DNA of 35,099 nt from Bacteroidota bacterium (lineage in GTDB: Bacteria > Bacteroidota > Bacteroidia > Chitinophagales > Chitinophagaceae), in the NCBI GenBank assembly GCA_029561305.1, contig JAKQJG010000226.1, positions 1 through 35,099 of the forward strand, given 5' to 3'. This document shows, piece by piece, positions 18,634 to 35,099 of this stretch. A program made the position numbers and the translations under genes. The notes below the pieces were generated by a model that was given only the letters and a program-made list of their open reading frames with translations, ran no database searches and was not told the DNA's origin. Position 1 is the first letter of the stretch. Each line of letters begins with the position of its first letter.

Positions 18634-18736
18634 TACTGTGCAACACATTTATTTGGGTCACCATTTATCCATAACGAAAAAATGCTTCAAAATAAATGAG
18701 TGACATTTGCAGCAGTTTGGCAATCAAAAAATACAG

Positions 18737-21406
18737 ATGAAAAATTTTCAAATAACCCTTTTTGTTCTCCTTTTTTCACTTTTGATGGCTCCTGTAAATG
18801 CCCAGCCAGGTGGTGGCAACCGGGGTGGAGGACAAAACATGAACATGGGTCATTTTTATGGCAAAATAGTTGATGCCAATAACAAACCCCTCGAAGCCGC
18901 TTCGGTGCAGTTGATCCAGAACAAACTGGATTCTTTTACCAAAAAAAGAAAAGACATAGTGATAGCAGGAATGCTTACCGATAAAAAAGGTGAGTTCAGT
19001 TTGGAAAACCTGCCTGTAATGGCAAGTTTTAAATTAAAAATAAGCGCTATTGGTTATAAATCAACCGAGCAGAAAGTAGCTTTTAATCTTAACATGAATG
19101 GAGCCAGGAGCGGCGATTTCAGTAGCATGGCTGCAGGCATGGATAAAGACCTGGGAAATATCAAACTGGAAATAGATGCACAGCAACTACAGGAGGTTAC
19201 CATCACCAATACCAAACCCCTGCTTACCATGGCCATCGACCGCAAAGTATTTAATGTTGAAAAAAATCTCACCAGCGTGGGCGGTACAGCCGTAGATGTG
19301 ATGAAAAATGTGCCGGGGTTAAATGTGGACATCGACGGCAATGTAACCATGCGGAATGCATCGCCACAGATCTTTGTAGATGGCCGTCCGACAACTATGA
19401 CACTGGAAGAAATTCCTGCAGATGCTATTGCAACTATTGAGATCATCACAAACCCTTCGGCAAAATTTGATGCCTCCGGCGGTGGGGCAGGAATATTAAA
19501 TGTAGTGATGAAGAAAAACCGGAAAGTGGGTTATAATGGTAACTTAAGGTCTGGTATCGACAGCCGGGCAAGGCCGCAATTTGGAGGCGATATTAACCTG
19601 AGACAACAAAAAGTAAACTTCTTTGCGTCCGCTAATGTGAACTTTCGGAAATCCATTACCAACTCTTTTACAGAAAGAACAGATTTTTTAGATAACGCAC
19701 AGGCCTTCCTGTTACAAACCAATAAACCTGTCGGAACCGGGTTATTTGCATTTGGCAGGGCTGGTGCTGATTATTTTATTGACAACCGGAACACCCTTAC
19801 CATTTCTGGTAATATGAGCGGTGGCCGGTTTAAAAACAGGGACCTGATCAATATCAACCGTGATACAATATTCAACGGATCGAATGGGTTGGATAGTATT
19901 ATGGCTGACTATGGATTCAGGAGCAGCAACTCTACCAGTAACTTCAGGAACTATGGAACAACGCTGGCCTTCAAACATAATTTTGCCAAACCCAGCCATT
20001 CTATCAGTGCTGATGTTAACTACAACTACAGTAAAAATAATAACGAGAATGAGCTTGGCACCCAATATTTTGAACCATCAAACGACCCGAAATCGCCCCT
20101 GATATTTCAAAAAAGTGAAGGTGGCGGCAATACCAGGTTCTTCACTTCTCAAATTGACTACGACAATGCTATAACAGATAAAATAAAAATAGAAGCTGGT
20201 GGAAGAATTGCCATCAGGAATTTTTATAGCTTCAACAATAATTTTATCAAATTACCATTTAATGCTGATTATCTGCCCCTTACAGCACTTAACAATGAGT
20301 ACAAATTTAACGACCGGGTACTGGCCGGTTACTTTACTTTTGCACAGCAGATCAACAAATTCAACTACCAACTGGGGCTGAGGATAGAGAGTTCTGAATA
20401 TAACGGGAGCCTCATCACCAGAAACCAGGCTTTTTCGAATGAGTTTCCCTTCAGCTTGTTTCCCAGTGCTTTTGCTACTTACAAACTCAATGATAAACAA
20501 GATCTGCAGCTGAATTATTCAAGAAAAATCAACAGGCCGAATTTCTTTCAATTGATACCATTTATTGACTACACCGATTCCTTAAATCTAAGCGTAGGCA
20601 ACCCCGGATTGACGCCTGAATTTACCAACCTGCTTGAGTTATCGTATCAAAACCAGCTGGCCGCCGGGCATAATCTCTTAGTCACGGGTTTCTTTAAAAA
20701 CACCAGTGATATCATTGCACGGTACCAGTATAAAGAAATTAATCCCAACCCGGATGCAAAGCCCGATTCGGTTATATTCACCACTTTTGCCAACGCAAGT
20801 AATACCTATACATTCGGACTTGAACTAACGAGCAAAAATAAGATCGCCAGTTGGTGGGATGTTACCAGTAATATTAATTTTTTTAACACCGCTTTAAAAG
20901 CAGGTAACCTTCCTGGTGGTATTGACGATGAGCAATTTAGTTGGTTTGCAAAAATGAATAATAATTTCAAACTCCCTTCTAATTACTCTATACAATTAAG
21001 TGGCGATTACCAGGCAAAGACCCTCGTTTCTCAAACGAATAGCGGCGGAGGCGGTGGTGGCGGCCGTCGTGGTGGTGGAGGCGGAATGTTTGGCGGTGGC
21101 AATACCCCTTCTGCCCAGGGCTTTATTCGCCCTTTGTATGGCGTTGATATAGCTATCAGAAAGGATTTCCTGAAAAACAATGCCGCGTCTTTAACACTGC
21201 AGGTAAACGATATTTTCCGTACCCGGCTCAACAGCGTTTTTTCCCAGTCTGTATTTTTTGAACAGAATGCAGAGCGCCGCCGGGATCCCCAGGTACTTCG
21301 CCTCAACTTTAACTGGCGTTTTGGGAAAGTGGACGTTTCCCTGTTTAAAAGGAAGAACAACCGGGTAGACACCGAAGGCATGCAGGGCATGGGAGGGGGA
21401 AATTAA
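18737..21406 (+). CDS. outer-membrane beta-barrel receptor, TonB-dependent-receptor-like (OMP_b-brl_3 type)
   Basis: The 889-residue protein has a signal peptide (KNFQITLFVLLFSLLMAPVNAQ), a Gly/Asn/Met-rich spacer, and a CarboxypepD_reg-like beta domain (FYGKIVDANNKPLEAASVQL..GEFSLENLP). A plug domain follows (VMKNVPGLNVDIDGNVTMRN, PQIFVDGRPTTMTLEEIPADAIATIEIITNPSAKFDASG), then a large barrel with many alternating strands (e.g. NYSRKINRPNFFQLIPFIDY, LEFT-like GNPGLTPEFTNLLELSYQNQ). This matches the Bacteroidota outer-membrane barrel family related to TonB receptors. The C-part contains a long Gly-rich loop, and the end (GMQGMGGGN) follows the last strand. ATG 18737 is preferred to the upstream TTG because it starts the signal peptide. 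Substrate unknown; no SusD partner is adjacent. Confidence 0.92.
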   Translation: MKNFQITLFVLLFSLLMAPVNAQPGGGNRGGGQNMNMGHFYGKIVDANNKPLEAASVQLIQNKLDSFTKKRKDIVIAGMLTDKKGEFSLENLPVMASFKLKISAIGYKSTEQKVAFNLNMNGARSGDFSSMAAGMDKDLGNIKLEIDAQQLQEVTITNTKPLLTMAIDRKVFNVEKNLTSVGGTAVDVMKNVPGLNVDIDGNVTMRNASPQIFVDGRPTTMTLEEIPADAIATIEIITNPSAKFDASGGGAGILNVVMKKNRKVGYNGNLRSGIDSRARPQFGGDINLRQQKVNFFASANVNFRKSITNSFTERTDFLDNAQAFLLQTNKPVGTGLFAFGRAGADYFIDNRNTLTISGNMSGGRFKNRDLININRDTIFNGSNGLDSIMADYGFRSSNSTSNFRNYGTTLAFKHNFAKPSHSISADVNYNYSKNNNENELGTQYFEPSNDPKSPLIFQKSEGGGNTRFFTSQIDYDNAITDKIKIEAGGRIAIRNFYSFNNNFIKLPFNADYLPLTALNNEYKFNDRVLAGYFTFAQQINKFNYQLGLRIESSEYNGSLITRNQAFSNEFPFSLFPSAFATYKLNDKQDLQLNYSRKINRPNFFQLIPFIDYTDSLNLSVGNPGLTPEFTNLLELSYQNQLAAGHNLLVTGFFKNTSDIIARYQYKEINPNPDAKPDSVIFTTFANASNTYTFGLELTSKNKIASWWDVTSNINFFNTALKAGNLPGGIDDEQFSWFAKMNNNFKLPSNYSIQLSGDYQAKTLVSQTNSGGGGGGGRRGGGGGMFGGGNTPSAQGFIRPLYGVDIAIRKDFLKNNAASLTLQVNDIFRTRLNSVFSQSVFFEQNAERRRDPQVLRLNFNWRFGKVDVSLFKRKNNRVDTEGMQGMGGGN

Positions 21407-21557
21407 TACAAACCGTTTAACCGGATTTTACATTTCGTGTGGATGTTTTCAACAGGCAGATTATTTTTGTATGATCTGGCTACTTTACTACAATTTATAT
21501 AGCATCGGGTAATTATTTTTGACTTCCATAAACCACATTACCACGAAAAACCGTTCT

Positions 21558-21779
21558 ATGTCTACAAAATTTTACCAGGTTGACTATGCCCAAATGATTG
21601 GGTTCGAAATAAAAAGCATGGGTATATTAAATATCCAGACTGACAAAGGAATTACAAGAGAACTGTTACGGGAGCAGGTAAGGCAACATGTAAATGATCC
21701 TGAGGCAAACATTGTAATATCGCATATTGCCAAATTAAACAGGGGTGAGTTTGAATTATTCACAACTAAAAAAGCCTGA
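21558..21779 (+). CDS. 73-residue protein, unknown function
   Basis: Starting at ATG 21558 the product has 73 residues: a beta-rich N-half (KFYQVDYAQMIGFEIKSMGILNIQTDKG), a predicted helix (ITRELLREQVRQHVNDPEA) and a C-terminal strand-rich end (NIVISHIAKLNRGEFELF). There is no signal peptide or membrane segment. It has its own downstream bidirectional terminator, and TATTTTTG boxes at 21472 and 21514 could be -7 elements. The codon pattern looks coding and the composition is ordinary, but I do not recognise a family. Confidence 0.65.
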   Translation: MSTKFYQVDYAQMIGFEIKSMGILNIQTDKGITRELLREQVRQHVNDPEANIVISHIAKLNRGEFELFTTKKA

Positions 21780-21801
21780 ACTCTAAAATAGTCTTATCAT
21801 G

Positions 21802-21836
21802 AAAAAGGATGACCCCACCCCGGGCCATCCTTTTTC
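21802..21836. terminator. bidirectional intrinsic terminator
   Basis: AAAAAGGATG and CATCCTTTTT form a 10-bp stem with a GC-rich loop. T-runs are present on both strands. It lies 23 bp after the 73-residue gene. Confidence 0.9.
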
Positions 21837-21885
21837 ATTTTAAATACCTATCTTGATTTCCAATTATTACCACTTAACTAACTGT

Positions 21886-22968
21886 ATGAAACGGACTTTA
21901 TACCCATTGGTCGCCCTTATTTTTTTATTAACGCAATGCAAACCCGAAGAACAAAAAGTAACAAAAGAAGAAGTAACAACATTCATTAAAGACATGGAAA
22001 GCGGTGCGCTCAAACGCAAACCGGACCTGATTACATCCCGCATTATTCTGCAGGCCCTTACTGACAGGATGCTGAAAGAAAAAGACATAAAGAACATTGC
22101 CGGCCTTGCAGAAGGGATGAAGACAGGAATACGGAATTCTGACCTGGATAATAGTGTATACTCAACCATTGGCAAAGGGGGCAGCTTTGAAAAAGTAAAA
22201 TCGTATGAAAAAAATGGTGTGCACAGGGTGATCTTCAGAATGTTTGGAGATAATGGCCTGAATTATCTTGACATGGAACTGACCAAACTGGAAGATAAGG
22301 TAGGCATCGCTGATATGTTTTCATACATATCTGGTGAAAATATCAGCCACACGATGGCAGACCTTGCAACAAGACTCACAGACGGTGTAAGTGAAAGTAA
22401 GGCACAGGAAGCAATCGATGCATTTCAATCTGTAAAGCGCCTGATGGCAAAAGAGAACTTTACCCAGGCCAAAAAAGAATTTGACAGGCTGCCGGGTTAT
22501 TTAAAAAACACCCGTGTAGCCGACATTTTAAATATCCAGATTTCAAGTAATCTTGACGAAGCGGTTTATGCAAAGGAGCTGAAACATTTTGAGATGAAGT
22601 ATGCCGGGGAGCCAAGTCTCCAATTATCGATGATTGACCTTTATCTTGTGCAAAAAGACTACGATAAAGCCATTAGGAGCATCGATATACTGGATTCACT
22701 CATTAACAAAGACAGCTTTTTAGATTATTACCGCGGTCTCATCATTTATTCCAAAGGTGAACCTGAAAAGGCAGTTGACTATTTTAAACAAGTAACCCTT
22801 AGCAACCCCGCCTTTCCGGGGGCTTATGAACAATTAACTGCTTACTATATTACACAGGATGACAAAGAAAATTCAAAACTATATTTCGAAAAATATAAGA
22901 AGTTACGAAATGCAGATAGCGAAATGATCAATACCTACGAAACGATCTATCCCTTTTTAAAGGAGTAA
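21886..22968 (+). CDS. lipoprotein with C-terminal TPR-like repeats
   Basis: The 360-residue protein has a lipoprotein signal (MKRTLYPLVALIFLLTQC, lipobox LLTQC, Cys18). An alpha/beta domain follows, then a helical region of TPR-type hairpins from about residue 175 (AIDAFQSVKRLMAKENFTQAKKEF, LYLVQKDYDKAIRSIDILDSL, GLIIYSKGEPEKAVDYFKQVTLSNPAFPGAYEQLTAYY). Such proteins usually scaffold envelope complexes. The start at 21886 is preferred over upstream codons because it begins the signal peptide. Partner and role are unknown. Confidence 0.82.
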   Translation: MKRTLYPLVALIFLLTQCKPEEQKVTKEEVTTFIKDMESGALKRKPDLITSRIILQALTDRMLKEKDIKNIAGLAEGMKTGIRNSDLDNSVYSTIGKGGSFEKVKSYEKNGVHRVIFRMFGDNGLNYLDMELTKLEDKVGIADMFSYISGENISHTMADLATRLTDGVSESKAQEAIDAFQSVKRLMAKENFTQAKKEFDRLPGYLKNTRVADILNIQISSNLDEAVYAKELKHFEMKYAGEPSLQLSMIDLYLVQKDYDKAIRSIDILDSLINKDSFLDYYRGLIIYSKGEPEKAVDYFKQVTLSNPAFPGAYEQLTAYYITQDDKENSKLYFEKYKKLRNADSEMINTYETIYPFLKE

Positions 22969-23072
22969 TATCATTTTGTAATAGCCAGTTACCAACAAAC
23001 CGAACTGCCCTTCCCTCTTTTTTACTCAACATATTTCAGTTAATTTGCCGCCTTATTTTATAAACGCCTTTC

Positions 23073-25715
23073 ATGAAAAATTTTAGTTTTAAATCCATCG
23101 TACCGCACCTGGTGGCAGTGGGTATCTTTTTATTAGTGACCGTGGTATTTTGCAAACCCGCCCTCGAAAGTGGTGTAATTCTTCAGCAGGGTGACGTAAC
23201 CGCTGTGGAAAGTATGAAACACCAAAGCGATATTTATAAAGAACAGCACGGCGTTTATCCGCTTTGGGTTACCAGTATGTTCAGCGGGATGCCCGCCTAT
23301 AATATCGCCTTTGATGGCCCGCCCTCTCCTTATGGTTATATCAACAAAACCATGCAGCTTTGGTTACCCAAACCGCTCAATTTTTTCTTTTTGTGCAGCA
23401 TCTGTTTTTATATTTTCTGTATGTGTGTTCGTATAAGGCCCTGGGTTGCCATTTTTGCCAGCCTGGCATTTGCTTATGCCACCTACAACCCTATACTGGT
23501 AGTGGCTGGTCACGACACCAAACTGCTTGCGCTGGCGTATGCCCCTGCATTGATTGGTGCGGTAATTTTAATTTTTGAAAAACAGTATATCAAAGGCTTT
23601 TTGCTGACCTCCTTATTTGCCACACTTCACTTATGGCAAAACCACCAGCAGGTTACTTATTATGTATTCATCATCGTTGGAATAATGGCCATTTCTTACC
23701 TGGTTAAATGGTTAAAGGAAAAAGATTTTGTACATATGGGCAAAGCTGGTGCGCTTACTGGTATTGCAGCAGGGTTTGCCCTGGCCATTTGCTCAATCTA
23801 TATTCTGCCGGTATATGATTATGCTAAGGACAGCAAACGTGGCGGGCAATTAATAATGGATAGTAAAAAAAGTGTGGTGGCCGATAAAACAACCGGCAAC
23901 AAAACCACCGGTCTTTCCATTGACTATGCTTTTCAATGGAGTAATACCAAATCAGAAGGTTTGAATGTGATATTTCCCGGGGTGCAGGGATACGGCAGTT
24001 ACCACTCAAAAAGAGGTGACGAAGATTATGTTTATCCCCTGCTGGGCGAAAATTCAAATGTTGCCACTTACCTGGCAGATGACCTGCGGATCAACGGAAA
24101 CGACCTGGATAGTTATGTAGGTTATATGTCCCAGTTTTTATATTGGGGCGACAAACCAGGCACCACCGGCCCTAATTATTTAGGAGCAGTGATCTGTTGC
24201 CTGTTTGTATTGGGAATGTTCTTTGCAGACAATAAATACCGTTGGTGGATACTGGCTGCAAGCCTTTTTGGGATCATACTGGCAATGGGCAAAAGCCTTC
24301 CTTCCATCAATAATTTCCTGTTTGAATATATGCCTGTTTATAACAAGTTCCGTACCCCGGAGATGGCGATGGTGATACCACAGGTTCTCTTCCCGATGCT
24401 TGCCGCTTTGGGTATGCAAAAAATTATCGAAGGTAATGTTACAGAAAGCGCTAAAAAATTAAGGCTGACGGCCATTACATTGGGTATTATTTTCGCTGTG
24501 GCAGCGGTGCTGTATTTTAGTTTTGATTACAGCAAAGAAAATAAAGCACGGACCAGGGAGTTTAATTCCATTATTGCCATACAGGACAGTTCAACAAACG
24601 GCAAACTGCAAATGCTGAATGAAAAAGAACAACCCCAGGGGGATAACCAGTTGTATGAAAATTTCACTTACCAGGCAAAAGGAGATACTAAAATAGCCAA
24701 AGGACTGTTGACGGCTTTGCAAAAAGACAGGGAGGGTTTGTTTAAAGCTGATTTGCTAAAAGCATTTGTTTTGGTGCTGCTCACACTTGGAATTGTTGGC
24801 TTATTTATATACAAAAAAATAAACAGTACTATTTTACTGGCCGCCTTGCCATTACTTGTGTTAATTGACCTTATACCCATAGGCAAAAATTACCTGAACG
24901 ATAAAAGTTTTGAATCTGAAGAGTTGTACGCCTCTAAAGAATTTTCTGAAAGCCCAACTGATAAAGAAATATTAAAAGACAAAGACCCCAATTACCGTGT
25001 ATTTGATATTAGTGGCGGCGATCCATTCCAGGATTCAAAGCCATCCTACTATCATAAATCATTAGGCGGTTATCACCCTGCTAAGATTGGCATTTATGAT
25101 GACCTGGCTACCTACCAGCTGAGCGGTAATTTCAACATGTCTGTAATCAATATGCTCAATGCAAAATACATTGTACAAAGCACGCCAGACAGGAAGGATA
25201 AAGTGGTAAGACAAAATCCTGATGCTTTGGGCAACTGCTGGTTTGTAAAAGGAGTAAGGTTTGTAAACGGACCCGTGGAAGAAATGAAGGCACTGGATAA
25301 CCTCAATCCAAAAGATACTGCCGTAATAGATAACAGCTTTAAGAATATGATCACGGGTGTGGTTTCGCCAGACAGCTCAGCCAGTATCCGGCAAACGAGT
25401 TTTGATAATATGGCGATTAAGTATGAAAGCAACAGCAGCAGTACTAACCTTGCTGTTTTCAGTGAAGTGTATTACCGTTACTGGAAGGCATATATTGATG
25501 GCAAGGAAGCACCTGTGGCAAAAGCCAACTATGTATTGAGGGCGCTGGTAATACCGGCTGGCAAACATACTATTGAATTTAAGTTTGAACCAACAGTATT
25601 CAATGTAAGTTACACTGTTTCAAAATATGCAGGCTGGTTGCTGTTCATTTTACTGATTGGCTTATCGGTTTACCTGGTTAAGAACAGCGCCGGCAAAAAA
25701 CAAGGTAATGCCTGA
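23073..25715 (+). CDS. YfhO-family polytopic membrane protein
   Basis: The 880-residue protein has an N-terminal helix (HLVAVGIFLLVTVVFCKPAL). The YfhO-like luminal loop follows (LQQGDVTAVESMKHQSDIY, PLWVTSMFSGMPAYNI), then about a dozen membrane segments up to residue 600, a large extracytoplasmic C-domain with beta strands (YRVFDISGGDPFQDSKPSYYHKSLGGYHPAKIGIYDDLA), and a final helix (AGWLLFILLIGLSVYLV). YfhO proteins have a GT-C-like architecture and are linked to glycosylation of cell-envelope polymers such as lipoteichoic acid in Firmicutes; in Bacteroidota the acceptor is unknown. The next gene overlaps its stop by 8 nt and two glycosyltransferases follow, supporting a role in surface-glycan synthesis. 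Confidence 0.9.
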   Translation: MKNFSFKSIVPHLVAVGIFLLVTVVFCKPALESGVILQQGDVTAVESMKHQSDIYKEQHGVYPLWVTSMFSGMPAYNIAFDGPPSPYGYINKTMQLWLPKPLNFFFLCSICFYIFCMCVRIRPWVAIFASLAFAYATYNPILVVAGHDTKLLALAYAPALIGAVILIFEKQYIKGFLLTSLFATLHLWQNHQQVTYYVFIIVGIMAISYLVKWLKEKDFVHMGKAGALTGIAAGFALAICSIYILPVYDYAKDSKRGGQLIMDSKKSVVADKTTGNKTTGLSIDYAFQWSNTKSEGLNVIFPGVQGYGSYHSKRGDEDYVYPLLGENSNVATYLADDLRINGNDLDSYVGYMSQFLYWGDKPGTTGPNYLGAVICCLFVLGMFFADNKYRWWILAASLFGIILAMGKSLPSINNFLFEYMPVYNKFRTPEMAMVIPQVLFPMLAALGMQKIIEGNVTESAKKLRLTAITLGIIFAVAAVLYFSFDYSKENKARTREFNSIIAIQDSSTNGKLQMLNEKEQPQGDNQLYENFTYQAKGDTKIAKGLLTALQKDREGLFKADLLKAFVLVLLTLGIVGLFIYKKINSTILLAALPLLVLIDLIPIGKNYLNDKSFESEELYASKEFSESPTDKEILKDKDPNYRVFDISGGDPFQDSKPSYYHKSLGGYHPAKIGIYDDLATYQLSGNFNMSVINMLNAKYIVQSTPDRKDKVVRQNPDALGNCWFVKGVRFVNGPVEEMKALDNLNPKDTAVIDNSFKNMITGVVSPDSSASIRQTSFDNMAIKYESNSSSTNLAVFSEVYYRYWKAYIDGKEAPVAKANYVLRALVIPAGKHTIEFKFEPTVFNVSYTVSKYAGWLLFILLIGLSVYLVKNSAGKKQGNA

Positions 25716-26757
25716 GGGAAAACAAGTTGATCCTTTTTTTATCAATAAGAAAGATGCTTTTGCAAATAATATAAATGCAAAGGCATATGAATTGTATTGC
25801 CAACTGCGGAGCCTCGACATCAGCAGGCTTGATACAGCCCCGTTATACAAAGATTACTTTTCTAAACATCATTTGGGAAAACGGCTTTTTTTTTCACTGC
25901 AAAACAGTGCCCATATTATTTACAACGCTGTGAACAAAACCAGCAGGCCGGTAATGGAACTTACGTTTATTGATTATGGCGCAGGGCTGGGCACTTTGTT
26001 CATGCTCGCCGGAAAGCTGGGTTTCAAAAGAATGGTTTATAACGATTATTTTCCTGAGTGGCACCAGCCGGCAAAAGCCCTTTGTACCACATTGGGGATA
26101 CAAATTGATGATTATGTAGAAGGAGATATTGAGGCAGTAACAGCATACGCCGCTGCCCGTGCCATTCAGCTTGACATTATTGCGTCCAGGAATGTCATTG
26201 AGCATATTTACAGTCTCCCGCATTTTTATCAATGCATTTTTGAGCACAACCGCCATGCTGTTACCTATTCCACCACTACTGCAAATTTTCATAATCCAGT
26301 GATGAGATGGTATCATATTTATGTGCATAAAAAATGGGAAAAAAGCACCTACCGGAAACAGCGGATGGCAGAAATAAAAAAAATGTACCCCGCTACAGCA
26401 GATCAGCAGCTGGCAGAACTAAGTGAACTAACACGGGGTAAAGGTCTGCAGGAATTTACAAATGCCGTGCATGATTTGCTGGCAGGAAAAACAATTGAAA
26501 AAGACAGAACATTAAGGAGCAATAGCTGCGATTGTATTACAGGGGTATGGAATGAACACCTGCTTAAAAAAACTGACTATGCACACATCATTAATTCCGC
26601 AGGCTTTAAAATGGATTACACCCCGGGCTATTGGGATACGCATTACGGTTCTGCTGCATTTAATATAGCCGCACGGCTTTTTAATAAACTGATCAGCCTT
26701 TTGGGAAACAGGGGTATCTTGCTTTCGCCTTTTGTAAATGTAATTGCATACAATTAA
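25708..26757 (+). CDS. class I SAM-dependent methyltransferase (glycan cluster)
   Basis: The 349-residue product from ATG 25708 overlaps the yfhO-like stop by 8 nt, indicating coupling. A helical N-domain of about 80 residues precedes a class I methyltransferase core with motif I FIDYGAGLGTLFMLAGKLG (residues 88-106), acidic YNDYFPEW after strand 2, and IIASRNVIEHIYSL as the motif IV/post region. The C-terminal third is helical and ends without membrane helices. Position between a YfhO protein and two glycosyltransferases suggests methylation of a sugar or lipid-linked precursor, but the substrate is not visible in the sequence. Confidence 0.82.
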   Translation: MPEGKQVDPFFINKKDAFANNINAKAYELYCQLRSLDISRLDTAPLYKDYFSKHHLGKRLFFSLQNSAHIIYNAVNKTSRPVMELTFIDYGAGLGTLFMLAGKLGFKRMVYNDYFPEWHQPAKALCTTLGIQIDDYVEGDIEAVTAYAAARAIQLDIIASRNVIEHIYSLPHFYQCIFEHNRHAVTYSTTTANFHNPVMRWYHIYVHKKWEKSTYRKQRMAEIKKMYPATADQQLAELSELTRGKGLQEFTNAVHDLLAGKTIEKDRTLRSNSCDCITGVWNEHLLKKTDYAHIINSAGFKMDYTPGYWDTHYGSAAFNIAARLFNKLISLLGNRGILLSPFVNVIAYN

Positions 26758-26760
26758 AGA

Positions 26761-27771
26761 ATGGATGTTTCCATCATTATAATAAACTATAAATCCTGTG
26801 CATTGGTGATGGACTGCATAGAAAGCATTGTGCAGCAGACCGGGCCCGGCAGTTATGAGATTATTGTGGTGGACAACGATTCAAAAGATGGCGCTAAAGA
26901 AAAAATACTAACGGCATATCCCGGCATACAATGGCTGCAACTTGACTATAATGCTGGTTTTGCGAGGGCTAATAATGCCGGTATGAAAGCCGCAAAAGGT
27001 GAGTACTATTTAATATTGAATGCAGATACGGTTATTCTTGACAATGCAATTAATAAAAGCCTGGCCTTACTCAAAAAATATCCGGGCGCTGTGGGTTGCG
27101 GCATCCAGTTATTAAATACAGACGGCAGTACACAAATAAGCGGTGCCCATTTTATAAAAGGAGGACTTAATACATTGCTTCCGCTACCCTACCTCGGCAA
27201 ACTGATCCGCTACCTGGGATACAAATTTAAAAGTACGGTTCCTAGTGTGCAACATGTAAAGCAGGATATTGAAGTTGATTGGATAGTGGGTGCTTATATG
27301 CTCGTACAAGCGGAAGCAGTAAAAAAAAGCGGCATGTTTGATGAAGATTTTTTTATGTATGCAGAAGAGATTGAATGGTGTGCCAGGTTGCGAAAGCAGG
27401 GTAAGCTTGTTTTATTTTCGGAACCAACAATCATTCATATTGGAGGCGGCACCAGTGCTGACTATTACAAAACGGAAGAATCGGAGAACGGAAAGAACTT
27501 ATGGAACCTGAAAGGAAGACAGATAATGGTAAGCAATATGGTAAGAATAAGAAAACAATTTGGTGCAGGCTGGTACTTATTCATTGCAGGTACTTACCTG
27601 GCTGAAATACCGGTATTTGCATGCTGCCTGCTTATAGACAAATTAATCAATGGAAGCGGCGCCCAATTCAAATGGAAGAATTTAAAAGATTATACAGCCA
27701 ACATGGCCGTTTTAATGAAATACTTTTTTACCATCCTGTATAACAAAAAATATTTTTATAAAGTCGCCTGA
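26761..27771 (+). CDS. family 2 glycosyltransferase, rhamnosyltransferase-like
   Basis: The 336-residue GT-A enzyme has MDVSIIIINYKSCALVMDCIESI at the start, nucleotide-binding VVDNDS (37-42), the metal-binding NADT (87-90), DWIVGAYMLVQAEAVKKSGMFDEDFFMYAEEIEWCARLRKQG with the acidic catalytic region, and HIGGGTSAD. This is the WbbL-type layout. A hydrophobic C-terminal stretch (WYLFIAGTYLAEIPVFACCLLID) suggests peripheral membrane contact. It begins 3 bp after the methyltransferase stop and is 4 bp from the next gene. Confidence 0.92.
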   Translation: MDVSIIIINYKSCALVMDCIESIVQQTGPGSYEIIVVDNDSKDGAKEKILTAYPGIQWLQLDYNAGFARANNAGMKAAKGEYYLILNADTVILDNAINKSLALLKKYPGAVGCGIQLLNTDGSTQISGAHFIKGGLNTLLPLPYLGKLIRYLGYKFKSTVPSVQHVKQDIEVDWIVGAYMLVQAEAVKKSGMFDEDFFMYAEEIEWCARLRKQGKLVLFSEPTIIHIGGGTSADYYKTEESENGKNLWNLKGRQIMVSNMVRIRKQFGAGWYLFIAGTYLAEIPVFACCLLIDKLINGSGAQFKWKNLKDYTANMAVLMKYFFTILYNKKYFYKVA

Positions 27772-27775
27772 CAGT

Positions 27776-28630
27776 ATGGAGTTATCAATCATCATCATCA
27801 ATTACAACACGTTTCAGCTTACCTGCAACTGTATTGCTTCTTTGCAGGAGAAGCTGGCGGGAGTTGAGTATGAGATCATCCTGGTTGATAACGCATCTGT
27901 TGAATGTAATGCTGACCTGTTCAAAGAGAAATTTCCCTTTATCAATTTAATTAAAAGCCCCACCAATACCGGATTTACCGGGGGCAATAACCTGGGCGTG
28001 GAAGCAGCTAAAGGTGAATACCTGCTGTTGCTCAACAGCGATACAGAACTCATCAACAATGCGCCAAAGATCTGTCTCGATCATATCAAAGCACATAAAG
28101 AAGCGGGAATGGTGAGCTGCCAGTTGCAGTACCCAGACGGAAGAGTACAACATACCTGCCGCCGGTTTCGTACCATTAGTTGGGAATTGCTGGAGATATT
28201 TCCTGTTTATAAACTGTTGCCAAAACACAAAAGGGAAATGCTGATGCTGCATCATTACTTTGATCATCAAAGTTTTGCCGAAGTGGATTGGGTTTGGGGT
28301 GCTTATATGTTGTTTCCCCGTTCCATCATCCAGCAATTGCCACAAAAAAAACTCTCCGATGATTTCTTTATGTATTGCGAAGACACACTGTGGTGCTGGG
28401 ATTTTAAACAGCTTGGATATAAGATCCATTTTTTGCCGAACGCAAAAGTGATGCACATTCACAAAGGCAGTGTAAGCAAAGACAAGTGGATCAAAATCAG
28501 AACCACTTCTATTAAAAACCACGCAACATTGATGAAGAAATTTTACCCGGACTTTCGCTGGTACATTTTTGCTGCTATCTATTTCACCAAGCAATATGGT
28601 GCATTATGGGCGGGTAAGTTATTTAAATAA
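27776..28630 (+). CDS. family 2 glycosyltransferase
   Basis: The 284-residue GT-A enzyme is paralogous to its upstream neighbour: MELSIIIINYNTFQLTCNCIASL, ILVDNAS, NSDT at 87-90, EVDWVWGAYMLFPRSI, SDDFFMYCEDTLWCWDFKQLGY and HIHKGSVS. It lacks the neighbour's C-terminal hydrophobic stretch. The two probably act on successive steps of the same glycan. It is the last gene of the 23073-28630 operon; I see no strong terminator immediately after it. Confidence 0.92.
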   Translation: MELSIIIINYNTFQLTCNCIASLQEKLAGVEYEIILVDNASVECNADLFKEKFPFINLIKSPTNTGFTGGNNLGVEAAKGEYLLLLNSDTELINNAPKICLDHIKAHKEAGMVSCQLQYPDGRVQHTCRRFRTISWELLEIFPVYKLLPKHKREMLMLHHYFDHQSFAEVDWVWGAYMLFPRSIIQQLPQKKLSDDFFMYCEDTLWCWDFKQLGYKIHFLPNAKVMHIHKGSVSKDKWIKIRTTSIKNHATLMKKFYPDFRWYIFAAIYFTKQYGALWAGKLFK

Positions 28631-29204: not shown

Positions 29205-32200
29205 ATGAGAAACGTATTAATCCGCTACGTCCTGGCAAAACTATTTGCAGGCGGCAATCTTTTTAAAAGCGCCCTGTTGGCTGCTATTATCGCTGGTCTG
29301 TTTTCCCCCATTACAATTTCCGCACAATGTACTGTTGGTTGTAACCAGTCCACTACCAGCAATACAATGCCGGGTACAAATAACTTTAGTAATACGTTTT
29401 GTATTACCACAGGTTCGTCGCTTACCTATAACCAGAATTTTGATATGAATGGCGGCACTGTTTGTGTTGGACTAAACGTAACGTTTAGTGCTGGTGGAGG
29501 CAATTACAATGGCAACTGGACCATCAACAACTATGGCAGTTTCTCCCGTGGTCTCACTTTAAACAGCGGCCAAACCTTTCACAATTACGGTACCTACACC
29601 GGATCACTGAGTCTCAATGGAGGTACTGTGATCAATTACAATGGTGCCACATTCACACCTTCATCCTTCAACTTCAACGGCGGTTCATTTACTAACAACA
29701 GTGGTGGAACTGCAAGTTTTGGTTCATCAGTAACTGTAAACTCAGGTGCCACGTTTGTGAATAACGGAACGCTCACAACTACCGGTTTAACACTAAACAG
29801 TTCAGCTTCCGCAACATTAGGAGGCACCACCAACATCAACGGCAGCATCAATAACAATGGCTCGATCAATATTACCGGTCTCATAACGGTAACGGGCAAC
29901 TACAATCAAAACAGCAGCGGCAGTATCAGCTCTTCCAGTAGTGCTCAATGCAATGCCTTAAATATCACTGGAACTATACAGGGGCAGGGCAGCTATAATG
30001 GAATAAACGGACTGTTGCTGAACAAAACGCTTTCTCCTGCCTGTGGAGGCTGTCTTATTAACGGCGCTGCAGTAGTAGGATCACCAGCCAATCAAATATC
30101 CGGGGCATCACTCACTGCGTCGGCCAATAATATCAGTGGTACCATCAGCAATCCTGGTGGAAGCCCGGCTGCAACACATTATATTGTTCTAAGAAGATTT
30201 GGCGCTGCGGTTACCGACCAGCCGGATGACTTCAGAAGTTATACGGTAGGGAATACAATAGGAAGCAGTACGGTGGTGGCAGTAAATGCGATATCCACGT
30301 TGAGTTTTACGGATGCAAACGTAATTGCCGCTAATGGTTGCGGCACCTATCACTATGCTGTTTTCCCATTAAACAACAATGGCAGTTGTGGTACTTACAA
30401 CCGAACAATCAATGCTACCAATAGAAGTTCTATAACGATTTCGGGTACAGGAGGTACTGTGGGTACCAGCACCGGTATTTGTTATGGCAATACCAGTGGA
30501 CTACTAACATTAAGCGGCTATGTGGGCTCTATTGTAAGATGGGAATCTTCTGTATCACCCTTTTCATCCTGGACAAGCATTGCCAATACAACTAACACTT
30601 ATACGTCAGGCGCATTAACCCAAACCACACAATTCAGGGCAGTGATAAACGCAGGTTCAGGATGTGGAAATATAAACGCTGCCGCAGCGACCATTACCAT
30701 GGATAATACTCCTCCTGTAATGAGTTGCCCGGCAAATATCACAGCCAACGCAACTGCAGGTATTTGCGGTGCAGTGGTTACTTACTCCGTATCTGCATCG
30801 GATGCATGCGATGGATCATCTTGTGCACCTTCCTCCATTACAGGATACACCTACATTGGTACTTACAATGGCCATACTTATTTCCGATCCAATTCAAGTT
30901 CACTCTGGCCCGTAGCCAACAGCAACGCACAGGCATTGGGTGCACACCTGGTTACCATTTCAAGTGCAGGTGAAAATACCTTCCTTGCAGGACTGGGGTA
31001 CCACTGGGGTGGAATGACAGACGAAGCAGTAGAAGGTACCTGGGCTTGGGTAACGGGCGAACCGGTGGTATACACTTCCTGGAACCCCGGCGAACCAAAC
31101 AACTCCGGCAACCAGGATTACCAGGTACTAAACTGGAGCGGCACTAACTGGGATGACCAGGGTACTACCACGGGAACTTCTTTACCTTCCATTATTGAAT
31201 TCGATTGCCTTAATTTAAACTTAGTGAGTGGTTTTAGCAGTGGAAGTGTTTTCCCGGTTGGTGTTACCACTGTTACATATAATGCCACTGATGCGGCCGG
31301 CAATACCAGCGCCGACTGCAGCTTTACCGTTACCGTTAATGACGCAACAGCACCTACCATTGTTTGCCCGGCAAATATTACTGTGAATGCTGCAGCAGGC
31401 GCCTGTGATGCAGTGGTAAATTACAATGCCCCCGTTGCAACTGACAATTGCGGTACCTGTACTTCTGCTCCAGCTATTACAGGTTACACCTCTTTAGGAT
31501 TGTATAACGGCAGCGCCTACTATATTTCCAATGCAACTGCCACACCGGCTGCTGCATTCAGTGCGGCCACTGCATTAGGCGCTTCTGTTGCAACCATTGC
31601 CAGTGCCACAGAAAATACTTTTGTAAGAAATGCAGCCAATACCGCTGGCTTTACAGGATCCTACATTATTGGCATTAACGATGTAGCAACAGAAGGTACT
31701 TTCCTTGGCTTCGCAGGTGAAACTATTTCTTACACCAACTGGAATTCAGGTGAACCTAACAACAGCGGGAATGAAGATTATATACAAGTATTAAATACCG
31801 GCCTTTGGAATGATATCGGTGCCGCTGCACAGAATTATATTATAAAGATCAGCTGTATTACTCCGGTATTAACCTCAGGCCTTTCCAGTGGAAGTACTTT
31901 CCCTGTTGGCACCAGTACGGTTAACTATTCTGCCACAGATCCAAACGGTAATACAGCCAACTGTTCCTTTACTGTAACGGTGGCGGTTAACCCAGCTTCT
32001 TTAGCCAGGGCAGTTTCAGCTTCCGCAACAGTTTGTGCCGGGTCAGGTACTAATATTAATATCGCCTTATCTGATATAGGTATCAGCTACCAGCTGCGTA
32101 ACAATGCAGGAAATATCAATATTGGCAGCCCCGTTATGGGCACGGGCGGCACCATCAGCTTACCTACAGGTAATTTATCGGCCACCACAACTTTTAATAT

Positions 32201-35099
32201 ACTTGCTACTGGCAGCAGTTGCAGTTACCAGTTAACCAACACTGTAACAGTTACGGTTAACCCCATTGCAACAGTAACAGCAGGCGCAGCATTAGCCGCT
32301 TGCCAGTCGGCATCACCAGCTGCTATTACTTTAACCGGTGCCAGTGTGGGTGGCAGTGCAACTACGGGTGCATGGTCTATAACATCTGGTGGTGGCTCAC
32401 TCAGCAGTACGGCGCAAACAGCCAATCCTGCTGCGGTAACCTATACAGCAGCGGCCAACTATAGCGGTTCCGTTACATTAACACTAACCAGCAATGACCC
32501 AGCAGGACCATGCGGCGCTGTGAGTGCAACAAGGACGATTACAATAAATCCTTTACCAACAAATATTACTCCTGCTGCAGCGGCAGCCTCTGTGTGCAGC
32601 GGCAGCGGAACCGATATACAAATCCCAGCTTCTGAACTGGGTGTAAATTATCAATTAAGAAACAACACAGGCAATATAAACATCGGCAGCCCTGTTGCCG
32701 GAACTGGTGGCACCATCAATTTGCCTACTGGCAACTTAACATCCGCCACTACTTTTAATGTACTGGCCACAAATGCAACTACCAGCTGCAACAGGCAACT
32801 CACTGCTACCGTAACAGTTTTAATGGATAATATTGCGCCAGTTATTACTTGTCCTGGCAATCAAACAATCAACCTGGATGCATCCTGTGACGCTAGTTTG
32901 CCAAACTATACTACCTTATTAACTGTTTCAGATAATTGCACCCCAACCGGATCAATTGTATTAACCCAGTCGCCAACAGCGGGTACCGTTTTAACAGGCA
33001 CAGGTTCACAAACGATTACACTCACGGCTACAGATGCAGCAGGCAATTCCACTAACTGTAATTTTACGCTCACAAGGCTGGATGTTACTGCACCAGTTAT
33101 AACTTGTCCAGCTAATATTACTACCAACGCAACAACAGGTATCTGTGGTGCGGTTGTTAACTATACCATAACCACCACTGACAACTGTTCAGGCCCGTCA
33201 TGCGCTCCGGCATCTATCCCCGGTTATACACTGATAGGCACTTACAACGACCATACCTATTTCCGTTCTAATACCAGTTCGCTCTGGTCCACAGCCAACA
33301 GCAACGCACAGGCATTGGGTGCACACCTGGTTACTATTTCAAGTGCAGGTGAAAGAGCATTCCTGGGTGGTTTGGGATACCATTGGGGTGGAATGACGGA
33401 TGAAGCCGTGGAGGGAACATGGGTATGGGTAACTGGCGAACCAGTAGTATATACTTCGTGGGCCAGCGGTGAACCAAACAACAGCGGTAACCAGGATTAC
33501 CTGGTAATTAACTATGCAGGTACTAACTGGGATGACCAGGGTACTACTGTTTCCGGTTCGCTGCCTTCTATGATTGAATTCGATTGTGGCCAGCCGGTTC
33601 TAAATTTAGTGAGTGGCTATTCAAGCGGGAGTGTTTTCCCCGTAGGTACCACCACCGTTACTTATAATACTACTGATGCCGCTGGCAATACCAGCGCTGA
33701 CTGCAGCTTTACCGTTACCGTTAATGATGCAACAGCACCTACCATTGTTTGCCCGGCAAATATTACTGTGAATGCTGCAGCAGGCGCCTGCGATGCAGTG
33801 GTAAATTACAATGCCCCCGTTGCAACTGACAACTGCGGCACCTGTACTTCTGCTCCAGTTATTACAGGCTACACCTCTTTAGGATTGTATAACGGCAGCG
33901 CCTATTATATTTCCAATACAACTGCCACACCGGTTGCTGCATTCAGTGCGGCCACTGCATTAGGCGCTTCTGTTGCAACCATTGCCAGTGCCACAGAAAA
34001 TACTTTTATCAGGAATGCTGCTAATACCGCTGGCTTTACCGGTTCTTACCTGATCGGCATCAACGATTTGGCTTTAGAAGGTACTTTTGCTGGATTTTCC
34101 GGAGAACCCATTTCCTATACCAACTGGAGTGCCGGCGAACCAAACAACAGCGGCGGCAATGAAGATTATACACAGGTATTAAACACCGGGGTATGGAATG
34201 ATATCGGTGCTGCCGCCCAGAACTACATTATTAAGATCAGCTGCATCACACCCGTACAAACCTCAGGGCTTGCGAGTGGAAGCAGCTTCCCTGTGGGAAC
34301 CAGCACAGTTAATTATTCGGCCACCGATCCCTATGGCAATACAGCCAACTGTTCCTTTACCGTAACGGTGGCGGTTAACCCAGCAGCTTTAGCAAGGTCG
34401 GTAACGGCGGCCACTGCAACTATTTGTGCAGGCAACAGTACTAATATCAATATCGCTTTATCTGATAACGGCATCAGTTACCAGTTGCGTAACAATGCTG
34501 GCAATATCAATATCGGCAGTCCTGTTATTGGCACGGGAGGCACAATCAGTTTACCTACAGGAAATTTGTTGAGCACCACCACTTTCAACATACTCGCTAC
34601 CGGCAGCAGTTGCAGTTACCAGTTAACCAATACTGTAACAGTTACGGTTAACCCGGTTGCTACAGTTACACCAGGCACCACTTTAACCGCCTGCCAGTCG
34701 GCATCACCAGCTGCTATCACTTTGACCGGTGCCAGTGTGGGTGGCAGTACAACTACAGGAGCATGGTCTGTTACATCCGGTGGCGGCACGCTCAGCAGCA
34801 CGGCACAAACAACCAATCCTGCGGCGGTTACTTATACACCTGCTGCTAACTACAGTGGCTCAGTTACATTAACACTAACCACAAATGATCCTGCCGGCCC
34901 ATGCGCCGCCGTGAGTGCAACAAGAACGATCACGGTGAATGCATTACCAACAAATATCACCCCTGCTGCAGCGGCAGCTTCTGTATGCAGCGGCAGCGCA
35001 ACCAATATACAAATCCCCGGATCGCAGGCAGGCGTAAACTATCAATTAAGAAACAACACCGGCAATGTAAACATTGGCAGCCCGGTAGCCGGTACCGGT
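29205..35099 (+). CDS. giant secreted modular protein with C-type-lectin domains nested in HYR domains (3' truncated by window)
   Basis: The frame from ATG 29205 stays open to the window edge: 1965 codons and no stop. Residues 1-40 are a signal peptide (cleavage about ISA-Q). Residues 42-290 are Asn/Gly/Thr/Ser-rich with short strand repeats, probably a beta-solenoid. Residues about 290-500 are Ig/fibronectin-like. From residue 500 the layout is modular: HYR with inserted C-type-lectin-like domain, type A (500-711); same, type B (712-926); Ig-like (927-1018); PKD-like (1019-1114); Ig-like (1115-1207); plain HYR (1208-1292). The same order then restarts at 1293 (A), 1507 (B), 1723, 1816 and 1912. 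Lectin parts carry GEPNN at E630, E850, E1423 and E1645 and WND or WDD about 18 residues later. It is probably a cell-surface or secreted glycan-binding adhesin. No export or anchor signal can be seen, since the C-terminus is missing. Confidence 0.9.
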   Translation, partial: MRNVLIRYVLAKLFAGGNLFKSALLAAIIAGLFSPITISAQCTVGCNQSTTSNTMPGTNNFSNTFCITTGSSLTYNQNFDMNGGTVCVGLNVTFSAGGGNYNGNWTINNYGSFSRGLTLNSGQTFHNYGTYTGSLSLNGGTVINYNGATFTPSSFNFNGGSFTNNSGGTASFGSSVTVNSGATFVNNGTLTTTGLTLNSSASATLGGTTNINGSINNNGSINITGLITVTGNYNQNSSGSISSSSSAQCNALNITGTIQGQGSYNGINGLLLNKTLSPACGGCLINGAAVVGSPANQISGASLTASANNISGTISNPGGSPAATHYIVLRRFGAAVTDQPDDFRSYTVGNTIGSSTVVAVNAISTLSFTDANVIAANGCGTYHYAVFPLNNNGSCGTYNRTINATNRSSITISGTGGTVGTSTGICYGNTSGLLTLSGYVGSIVRWESSVSPFSSWTSIANTTNTYTSGALTQTTQFRAVINAGSGCGNINAAAATITMDNTPPVMSCPANITANATAGICGAVVTYSVSASDACDGSSCAPSSITGYTYIGTYNGHTYFRSNSSSLWPVANSNAQALGAHLVTISSAGENTFLAGLGYHWGGMTDEAVEGTWAWVTGEPVVYTSWNPGEPNNSGNQDYQVLNWSGTNWDDQGTTTGTSLPSIIEFDCLNLNLVSGFSSGSVFPVGVTTVTYNATDAAGNTSADCSFTVTVNDATAPTIVCPANITVNAAAGACDAVVNYNAPVATDNCGTCTSAPAITGYTSLGLYNGSAYYISNATATPAAAFSAATALGASVATIASATENTFVRNAANTAGFTGSYIIGINDVATEGTFLGFAGETISYTNWNSGEPNNSGNEDYIQVLNTGLWNDIGAAAQNYIIKISCITPVLTSGLSSGSTFPVGTSTVNYSATDPNGNTANCSFTVTVAVNPASLARAVSASATVCAGSGTNINIALSDIGISYQLRNNAGNINIGSPVMGTGGTISLPTGNLSATTTFNILATGSSCSYQLTNTVTVTVNPIATVTAGAALAACQSASPAAITLTGASVGGSATTGAWSITSGGGSLSSTAQTANPAAVTYTAAANYSGSVTLTLTSNDPAGPCGAVSATRTITINPLPTNITPAAAAASVCSGSGTDIQIPASELGVNYQLRNNTGNINIGSPVAGTGGTINLPTGNLTSATTFNVLATNATTSCNRQLTATVTVLMDNIAPVITCPGNQTINLDASCDASLPNYTTLLTVSDNCTPTGSIVLTQSPTAGTVLTGTGSQTITLTATDAAGNSTNCNFTLTRLDVTAPVITCPANITTNATTGICGAVVNYTITTTDNCSGPSCAPASIPGYTLIGTYNDHTYFRSNTSSLWSTANSNAQALGAHLVTISSAGERAFLGGLGYHWGGMTDEAVEGTWVWVTGEPVVYTSWASGEPNNSGNQDYLVINYAGTNWDDQGTTVSGSLPSMIEFDCGQPVLNLVSGYSSGSVFPVGTTTVTYNTTDAAGNTSADCSFTVTVNDATAPTIVCPANITVNAAAGACDAVVNYNAPVATDNCGTCTSAPVITGYTSLGLYNGSAYYISNTTATPVAAFSAATALGASVATIASATENTFIRNAANTAGFTGSYLIGINDLALEGTFAGFSGEPISYTNWSAGEPNNSGGNEDYTQVLNTGVWNDIGAAAQNYIIKISCITPVQTSGLASGSSFPVGTSTVNYSATDPYGNTANCSFTVTVAVNPAALARSVTAATATICAGNSTNINIALSDNGISYQLRNNAGNINIGSPVIGTGGTISLPTGNLLSTTTFNILATGSSCSYQLTNTVTVTVNPVATVTPGTTLTACQSASPAAITLTGASVGGSTTTGAWSVTSGGGTLSSTAQTTNPAAVTYTPAANYSGSVTLTLTTNDPAGPCAAVSATRTITVNALPTNITPAAAAASVCSGSATNIQIPGSQAGVNYQLRNNTGNVNIGSPVAGTG
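30702..33080 (+). repeat. super-repeat unit 1 (about 793 codons)
   Basis: This unit contains A, B, Ig-like, PKD-like, Ig-like and plain HYR modules. It runs from DNTPPVMSCPANIT to the end of the plain HYR module. The same series restarts at 33081 in the same frame. Confidence 0.9.
33081..35099 (+). repeat. super-repeat unit 2 (continues past the window)
   Basis: It begins with DVTAPVITCPANIT. The offset to unit 1 is 2379 nt at the start and 2388-2391 nt from the third module on, so it carries a few extra codons. The first 45 codons of module B (31338 against 33723) differ at four positions, all synonymous. Confidence 0.9.

Follow-up and report, generated by a model that had tools for sequence, protein, structure and literature searches.

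The window analysed here is the whole of contig C56 (JAKQJG010000226.1), a stretch of 35,099 nt from a Bacteroidota bacterium of the family Chitinophagaceae (assembly GCA_029561305.1), and its 3' part is occupied by a giant adhesin-like open frame that runs past the window end. A Pfam scan of the whole frame revealed nine stretches of HYR (PF02494), an immunoglobulin-like (Ig-like) domain, and four of Lectin_C (PF00059), which is consistent with four HYRs cut in two, each around a C-type lectin domain (CTLD), and one plain HYR. The features of the frame were as follows, D1 to D4 denoting the nested units and positions of the HYR profile being given where determined (aa, amino acids).

29205..35099, + strand: giant adhesin-like open frame, 1965 aa, still open at the contig 3' end
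29205..30701, + strand: N-terminal region, residues 1-499, with a signal-peptide-like start judged by eye, then Gly/Asn/Ser/Thr-rich repeats
30708-31340, 31347-31985, 33087-33725 and 33732-34373, + strand: entire nested units D1 to D4
30708..30809, + strand: D1 HYR, N-terminal half
30810..31208, + strand: D1 guest, CTLD; Lectin_C 37.6 bits; Ca2+-site letters EPN/Q/DD
31209..31340, + strand: D1 HYR, C-terminal half; profile 45-81
31347..31451, + strand: D2 HYR, N-terminal half; scanned alone, profile 4-37, 21.0 bits
31452..31856, + strand: D2 guest, CTLD; Lectin_C 23.7 bits; EPN/E/ND
31857..31985, + strand: D2 HYR, C-terminal half; profile 41-81
31986..32825, + strand: linker block of repeated units, from D2 to the plain HYR
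32826..33095, + strand: plain HYR, insert-free internal control, residues 1208-1297; one match, 32.2 bits
33087..33188, + strand: D3 HYR, N-terminal half
33189..33587, + strand: D3 guest, CTLD; Lectin_C 35.4 bits; EPN/Q/DD
33588..33725, + strand: D3 HYR, C-terminal half; profile 44-81
33732..33836, + strand: D4 HYR, N-terminal half
33837..34244, + strand: D4 guest, CTLD; Lectin_C 26.6 bits; EPN/E/ND
34245..34373, + strand: D4 HYR, C-terminal half; profile 43-81
33087..35099, + strand: second copy of the block beginning at 30708; 82.4% DNA identity over 2001 aligned bases
34959..35099, + strand: final 141 bases, shared without mismatch with an end of contig C122

The HYR score of the whole frame was 209.1 bits and those of the four units were 54.5-64.4 bits, the Pfam cut-offs being 21.7 bits for PF02494 and 22.6 bits for PF00059, and all four Lectin_C matches lay above the latter. 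Scanned singly, each of D1 to D4 gave two HYR stretches and one Lectin_C stretch, the HYR being split in all four near profile position 37/41, with the best C-terminal stretches beginning at 41-45 and ending at 81. Removal of the lectin fused the HYR stretches into a single match spanning profile positions 4-81, with a gain of 5 to 9 bits in all three units scored with Pfam (D1, 54.5 to 63.2; D2, 64.4 to 69.6; D3, 55.4 to 63.9); D4, judged with a custom HYR profile instead of Pfam, behaved in the same way. Since the stretches fuse upon excision and the plain HYR is one unbroken match, the observation of the initial annotation, that a lectin is inserted inside HYR at four sites and that the plain HYR serves as an insert-free control, was correct, and at the level of domain profiles the nested arrangement was confirmed. 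The N-terminal region and the linker block matched no Pfam family at E ≤ 0.01.

The inserts were 133-136 residues long by the cut points used, slightly longer than the 125 or so first noted. A CTLD profile matched all four, a C-type lectin fold was obtained in the models of D1 and D2, and two cysteines were located close to the two ends of every insert. The HYR start quoted in the initial annotation, PANITVNAAAGACDAVVNYNAP, was found in D2 and D4, but D1 and D3 read PANITANATAGICGAVVTY and PANITTNATTGICGAVVNY. Likewise, four units are indeed present, yet they are of two kinds (D1/D3 and D2/D4) and involve one block duplication. D2 and D4 were 92% identical, D1 and D3 were 54% and 53% identical to D2, respectively, and the lectins of D1 and D3 were 83% identical, the block from D1 being repeated in tandem from D3 as listed above. 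Between the copies, the ratio of non-synonymous to synonymous substitution rates (dN/dS) was 0.11 and 0.10 for the lectins and 0.10 for the linker block, with dS of D1 versus D3 (1.19) close to saturation; the excess of synonymous over non-synonymous differences indicates that the copies are under purifying selection.

Nested lectins in other genomes

The four inserts were scanned against genome contigs and the best 80 of 483 relatives were analysed, a sample that is biased because it consists of the best relatives of nested inserts. Custom profiles were built for HYR (125 sequences, 81 positions; seeded with three excised window domains and the plain HYR) and for CTLD (139 sequences, 136 positions). 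Each CTLD, including those of the window gene and two viral loci, was removed and a single HYR across the junction was scored; 128 of the 139 CTLDs were testable, the other 11 being too close to an end. The excision scores were two-humped, with 94 of the 128 at or below 14.9 bits and the other 34 at or above 35.8 bits; a chance HYR match was ruled out, since CTLDs tested alike fell on either side of this gap. One high scorer was set aside because it showed almost no gain over the uncut sequence, and the remaining 33 nested CTLDs comprised the four of the window and 29 from 24 named loci.

Thus, 24 of the 80 named loci possessed singly nested lectins and six more had several guests per HYR, all 30 being from Bacteroidota, so that the arrangement recurs in further members of the phylum. 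The 24 loci belonged to Flavobacteriaceae (13), other Flavobacteriia (4), Marinifilaceae (3), Chitinophagaceae (1) and others (3), and the other 56 comprised 25 from Bacteroidota (eight of them multi-guest or doubtful Saprospiria) and 31 from other phyla or with none given. Two viral contigs from IMG/VR (L087 and L088) carried relatives of the CTLDs (52% and 42% identity, respectively), neither nested in HYR.

Two further samples, of the window's class and family, were scored on a wider search grid than the best-80 set. PF00059 was matched in 30 of 295 genomes of the class, the window's own among them, giving 29 loci besides that of the window (L166-L194), some matches being without a locus. 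Three of these loci were clearly nested (L175, L179 and L183; 53-74 bits) and one weakly so (L176; 21.8 bits), 19 of the 29 scored at most 8.5 bits and were not nested, and six were too close to an end (L166, L185, L189, L192, L193 and L194). In the family sample, 14 of 195 genomes matched the inserts, the window's own included. L120 (103 bits) and L121 (90 bits) were strongly nested; L123-L126, L134-L137, L139-L141 and L143-L145, several of which overlap, scored 15-43 bits and are read as nested in divergent HYRs. L130 scored 57.7 bits for one of its two CTLD pieces, L122, L127-L129 and L132 scored at most 1.6 bits, and L131 was too close to an end for the nesting test. Judged by these scores, the arrangement is recurrent yet sporadic.

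For 191 CTLDs aligned over 133 columns, a tree was constructed by a quick method after matches covering fewer than 85 profile positions and exact duplicates had been dropped. The label "nested" was given at excision scores of at least 20 bits, which is looser than the criterion used for the best 80, and the label "multi" (18 rows) was assigned by hand. Three labels in all were used, and they clustered strongly, with 14 changes versus a shuffled mean of 62.8. D1/D3 and D2/D4 fell in separate regions, both of them nested. A single clade of nested lectins was rejected, as the "nested" label takes 10 changes, two of them forced by well-supported branches; with 76 of the 188 inner branches open, gain and loss are indistinguishable on this tree.

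Other guests and other loops of HYR

Split HYRs likewise housed FBA, CBM4/9 and SUEL domains. In a Flavobacteriales metagenome-assembled genome (L026, frame from 4812), two FBA (Fbs1-like) sugar-binding domains, aa 276-431 and 513-673, were each nested in HYR. The FBA family is mainly animal; PF04300 (FBA) matched none of the 295 class genomes, but control genomes gave no match either, and SUEL matched two of the 295, one above the cut-off. Nineteen plain HYRs from other loci aligned across the insert of the FBA-guest homologue, the insert itself falling in a gap, and in its model the predicted local distance difference test score (pLDDT) was 89-95 for residues 1-30 and 86-97 for residues 201-240, a pattern that fits pairing of the two HYR halves but is no proof of it.

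Several guests may share one host. The split HYR at aa 469-1112 of L020 (frame from 3054) encloses four consecutive CTLDs, and mixed guest blocks within one HYR were observed in L086, L064, L046 and L019. The guests of L086 were CTLDs, a CBM4/9 domain and a weak VHL-beta-like stretch (E 0.057, under the cut-off), and the blocks of L064 and L019 included stretches without a Pfam match. Two more candidates labelled "multi" on the tree, L037 and L053, scored 64.5 and 60.4 bits upon excision and were left out of the multi-guest count because one flank was not a bare half.

Loops other than that at profile 37/41 were also occupied. A SUEL-type lectin was located in a later HYR loop in L120 (aa 942-1110, by Pfam) and in L060 (frame from 2, aa 67-234, by resemblance), and a CTLD in L017 (aa 1500-1716) was inserted at an earlier loop, near profile position 12/13, indicating that more than one HYR loop is used. 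In L165, the HYR at aa 680-920 was apparently broken by some 150 aa of beta-rich, unnamed sequence; it scored 56.8 bits upon excision versus 45.3 bits for the C-terminal half alone, which is moderate support.

Calcium site, export and competing explanations

In the alignment, the EPN-type ligand set, consisting of E and N of EPN, E, and N and D of WND, was complete in D2 and D4, with Q and D at two of the positions in D1 and D3. EPN-type CTLDs have mannose, N-acetylglucosamine or fucose-like specificity, and the window lectins would accordingly be predicted to bind Ca2+ and sugar. They resemble mannose-binding protein and other EPN-type C-type lectins in the CTLD fold and, for D2 and D4, in the calcium and sugar ligand positions EPN/E/ND. 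Unlike mannose-binding protein, they are nested in another domain, D1 and D3 carry Q and DD, and two cysteines of the human protein align with Y and A of the D2 insert. Two nested CTLDs of other loci (L036:6477-7112 and L075:4893-5519) had QPD in place of EPN, which presumably confers galactose-type specificity.

The genome encodes SprA, the outer-membrane translocon of the type IX secretion system (T9SS), on contig C144 (TIGR04189, 2410 bits). The 141 bases at the 3' end of the window exactly matched one end of contig C122 (G000, L203), in which a reverse-strand frame from 8736 encoded 1147 aa with a T9SS type A sorting domain (TIGR04183/PF18962) at the C-terminal end. C122 therefore likely carries the C-terminal part of the window gene, and a protein of about 3065 aa would result if C56 and C122 join at the 141-base overlap. 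When four homologues were scanned with NCBIfam, L008 and L026 carried the T9SS sorting domain, and none was found in the stretch examined of L020 or L025. Type IX export of the window protein is thus probable. Upstream of the frame, window positions 18707-28630 encode a TonB-type outer-membrane barrel (OMP_b-brl_3), a YfhO-like membrane protein and a methyltransferase-like protein (under the Pfam cut-off), and two family 2 glycosyltransferases lie immediately upstream of the adhesin gene.

Taken together, the gene quite probably encodes a large Bacteroidota surface adhesin, exported by T9SS, in which Ca2+-dependent lectins stick out laterally from the HYR domains; the interpretation in the initial annotation, a lectin on an Ig-like stalk, was in this respect supported. 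The stalk contains HYR domains, in four of which the chain would exit at the DNC motif, form a full CTLD, re-enter and complete the same HYR. The HYR would then be a split host gripping the lectin at both ends, with the Ca2+ and sugar site facing away from the fibre axis and neighbouring domains acting as spacers. The two end-proximal cysteines of each insert could staple the neck through a disulfide, and the protein may attach the bacterium to glycans on other cells or on particles.

Several points weigh against this reading. Packing of the HYR halves is deduced from sequence, the models yielding secondary structure and confidence values only, and the tandem model had a predicted template modelling score (pTM) of 0.51. 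HYR or Ig-like structures were absent from the match lists of the structure library; these lists are filled by guest folds, so their absence there says nothing on the host. Because the custom HYR profile was seeded with window domains, the custom-profile excision scores of the window are inflated, those of Pfam being independent. The calcium site of D1 and D3 may be weak, as Q and D replace two canonical Ca2+ ligands. The link to C122 depends on an overlap within a repeat, which is presumably what a node of the assembly graph would leave, and other paths would then be possible. By the excision scores, nesting is a minority arrangement, an exception among Bacteroidota Lectin_C loci, and the family sample includes three further genomes of the window's genus, of which none matched the insert alignment, and the gene is thus not part of the core.

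It is also conceivable, if rather unlikely, that the nested lectins have lost sugar binding and act purely as structural spacers or protein-protein contacts. Against this, the EPN/E/ND positions of mannose-binding protein are retained in D2 and D4 and in 18 of 27 nested domains, and three of the other guest families of split HYRs, FBA, SUEL and CBM4/9, are also glycan-binding. Much less probable is a beads-on-a-string arrangement, in which every lectin is flanked by two small, separate Ig-like domains, each "half" being a short domain in its own right, as the separate HYR stretches reported by Pfam could suggest. The two halves complement each other along a single 81-position profile and fuse into a better-scoring match in the three units tested, and the plain HYRs span the insert of the FBA-guest homologue, whose model, confident in both flanks, fits pairing; on profile continuity and excision gain, this arrangement was rejected. 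A variable receptor-binding CTLD of the diversity-generating retroelement or phage-tail type, with HYR as the stalk, can hardly be entertained: phage tail fibres are reported to bear terminal CTLDs together with Ig-like domains (PMC12386605), but the window lectins are nested rather than terminal, a dN/dS of about 0.1 between copies is unlike that of a hypermutated region, and the two viral-contig relatives analysed are not nested, although no search aimed at a reverse transcriptase or template repeats was made.

On balance, it seems an even question whether the Bacteroidota HYR acts as a general socket, with a preferred loop near profile 37/41, other loops in some proteins, and interchangeable guests (C-type lectin, FBA, CBM4/9, SUEL and unnamed beta domains, singly or in strings of up to four lectins), by whose exchange lineages would re-tool the glycan range of T9SS adhesins while the fibre stays unchanged.

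Relation to known adhesins

Intimin and invasin, in which a C-type-lectin-like domain caps an Ig-like stalk, likewise display a CTLD on the bacterial surface; theirs follows the last Ig-like domain, whereas that of the window protein lies mid-domain, repeatedly. In the pneumococcal pilus adhesin RrgA, a von Willebrand A domain is inserted among Ig-like domains, so that a ligand-binding domain is similarly gripped at both ends by Ig-like support, although host, guest, secretion route and phylum are different.

The RTX adhesins also offer a close parallel. According to two reports (PMC12077191, PMC10865825), AhLap, FrhA and MpIBP have split Ig-like domains from which a ligand-binding guest with adjacent N- and C-terminal ends buds out and is projected off the fibre axis, the guests including carbohydrate-binding modules. 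At the sequence level, the window protein has the corresponding feature, an interrupted Ig-like domain that holds a ligand-binding domain. It differs in that its host is a recognisable HYR (PF02494), its guest a CTLD and its phylum Bacteroidota, and in that several guests per HYR are possible; further, the sugar-binding unit of FrhA (PMC10865825) has a single N-terminal strand before the guest, whereas the window chain exits mid-domain. RTX adhesins use type I secretion, whereas the likely C-terminal signal here is that of T9SS, and Pfam scanning detected no RTX family in either the frame (E ≤ 1) or its likely continuation on C122 (E ≤ 0.01). Thus, the window protein would work like the RTX split domains but does not belong with them. 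The terms "HYR", "C-type lectin" and "Bacteroid" do not occur in the main text of PMC12077191, nor do "HYR" and "Bacteroid" in PMC10865825, and a lectin nested in HYR was undescribed in the titles and abstracts surveyed, a coverage mostly outside subscription journals and preprints.

Split Ig-like hosts are already known from RTX adhesins, and homology-dependent programs may miss them, as one report warns (PMC10865825). In the present case the host belongs to an established Pfam family, which puts split hosts and their guests within reach of sequence searches. Candidate glycan-binding domains on the surface proteins of Bacteroidota, unnamed guests included, could be catalogued in this way, and one may ask which glycans Bacteroidota hold on to, the nested CTLDs with full EPN/E/ND sites being ready test cases for the predicted binding.
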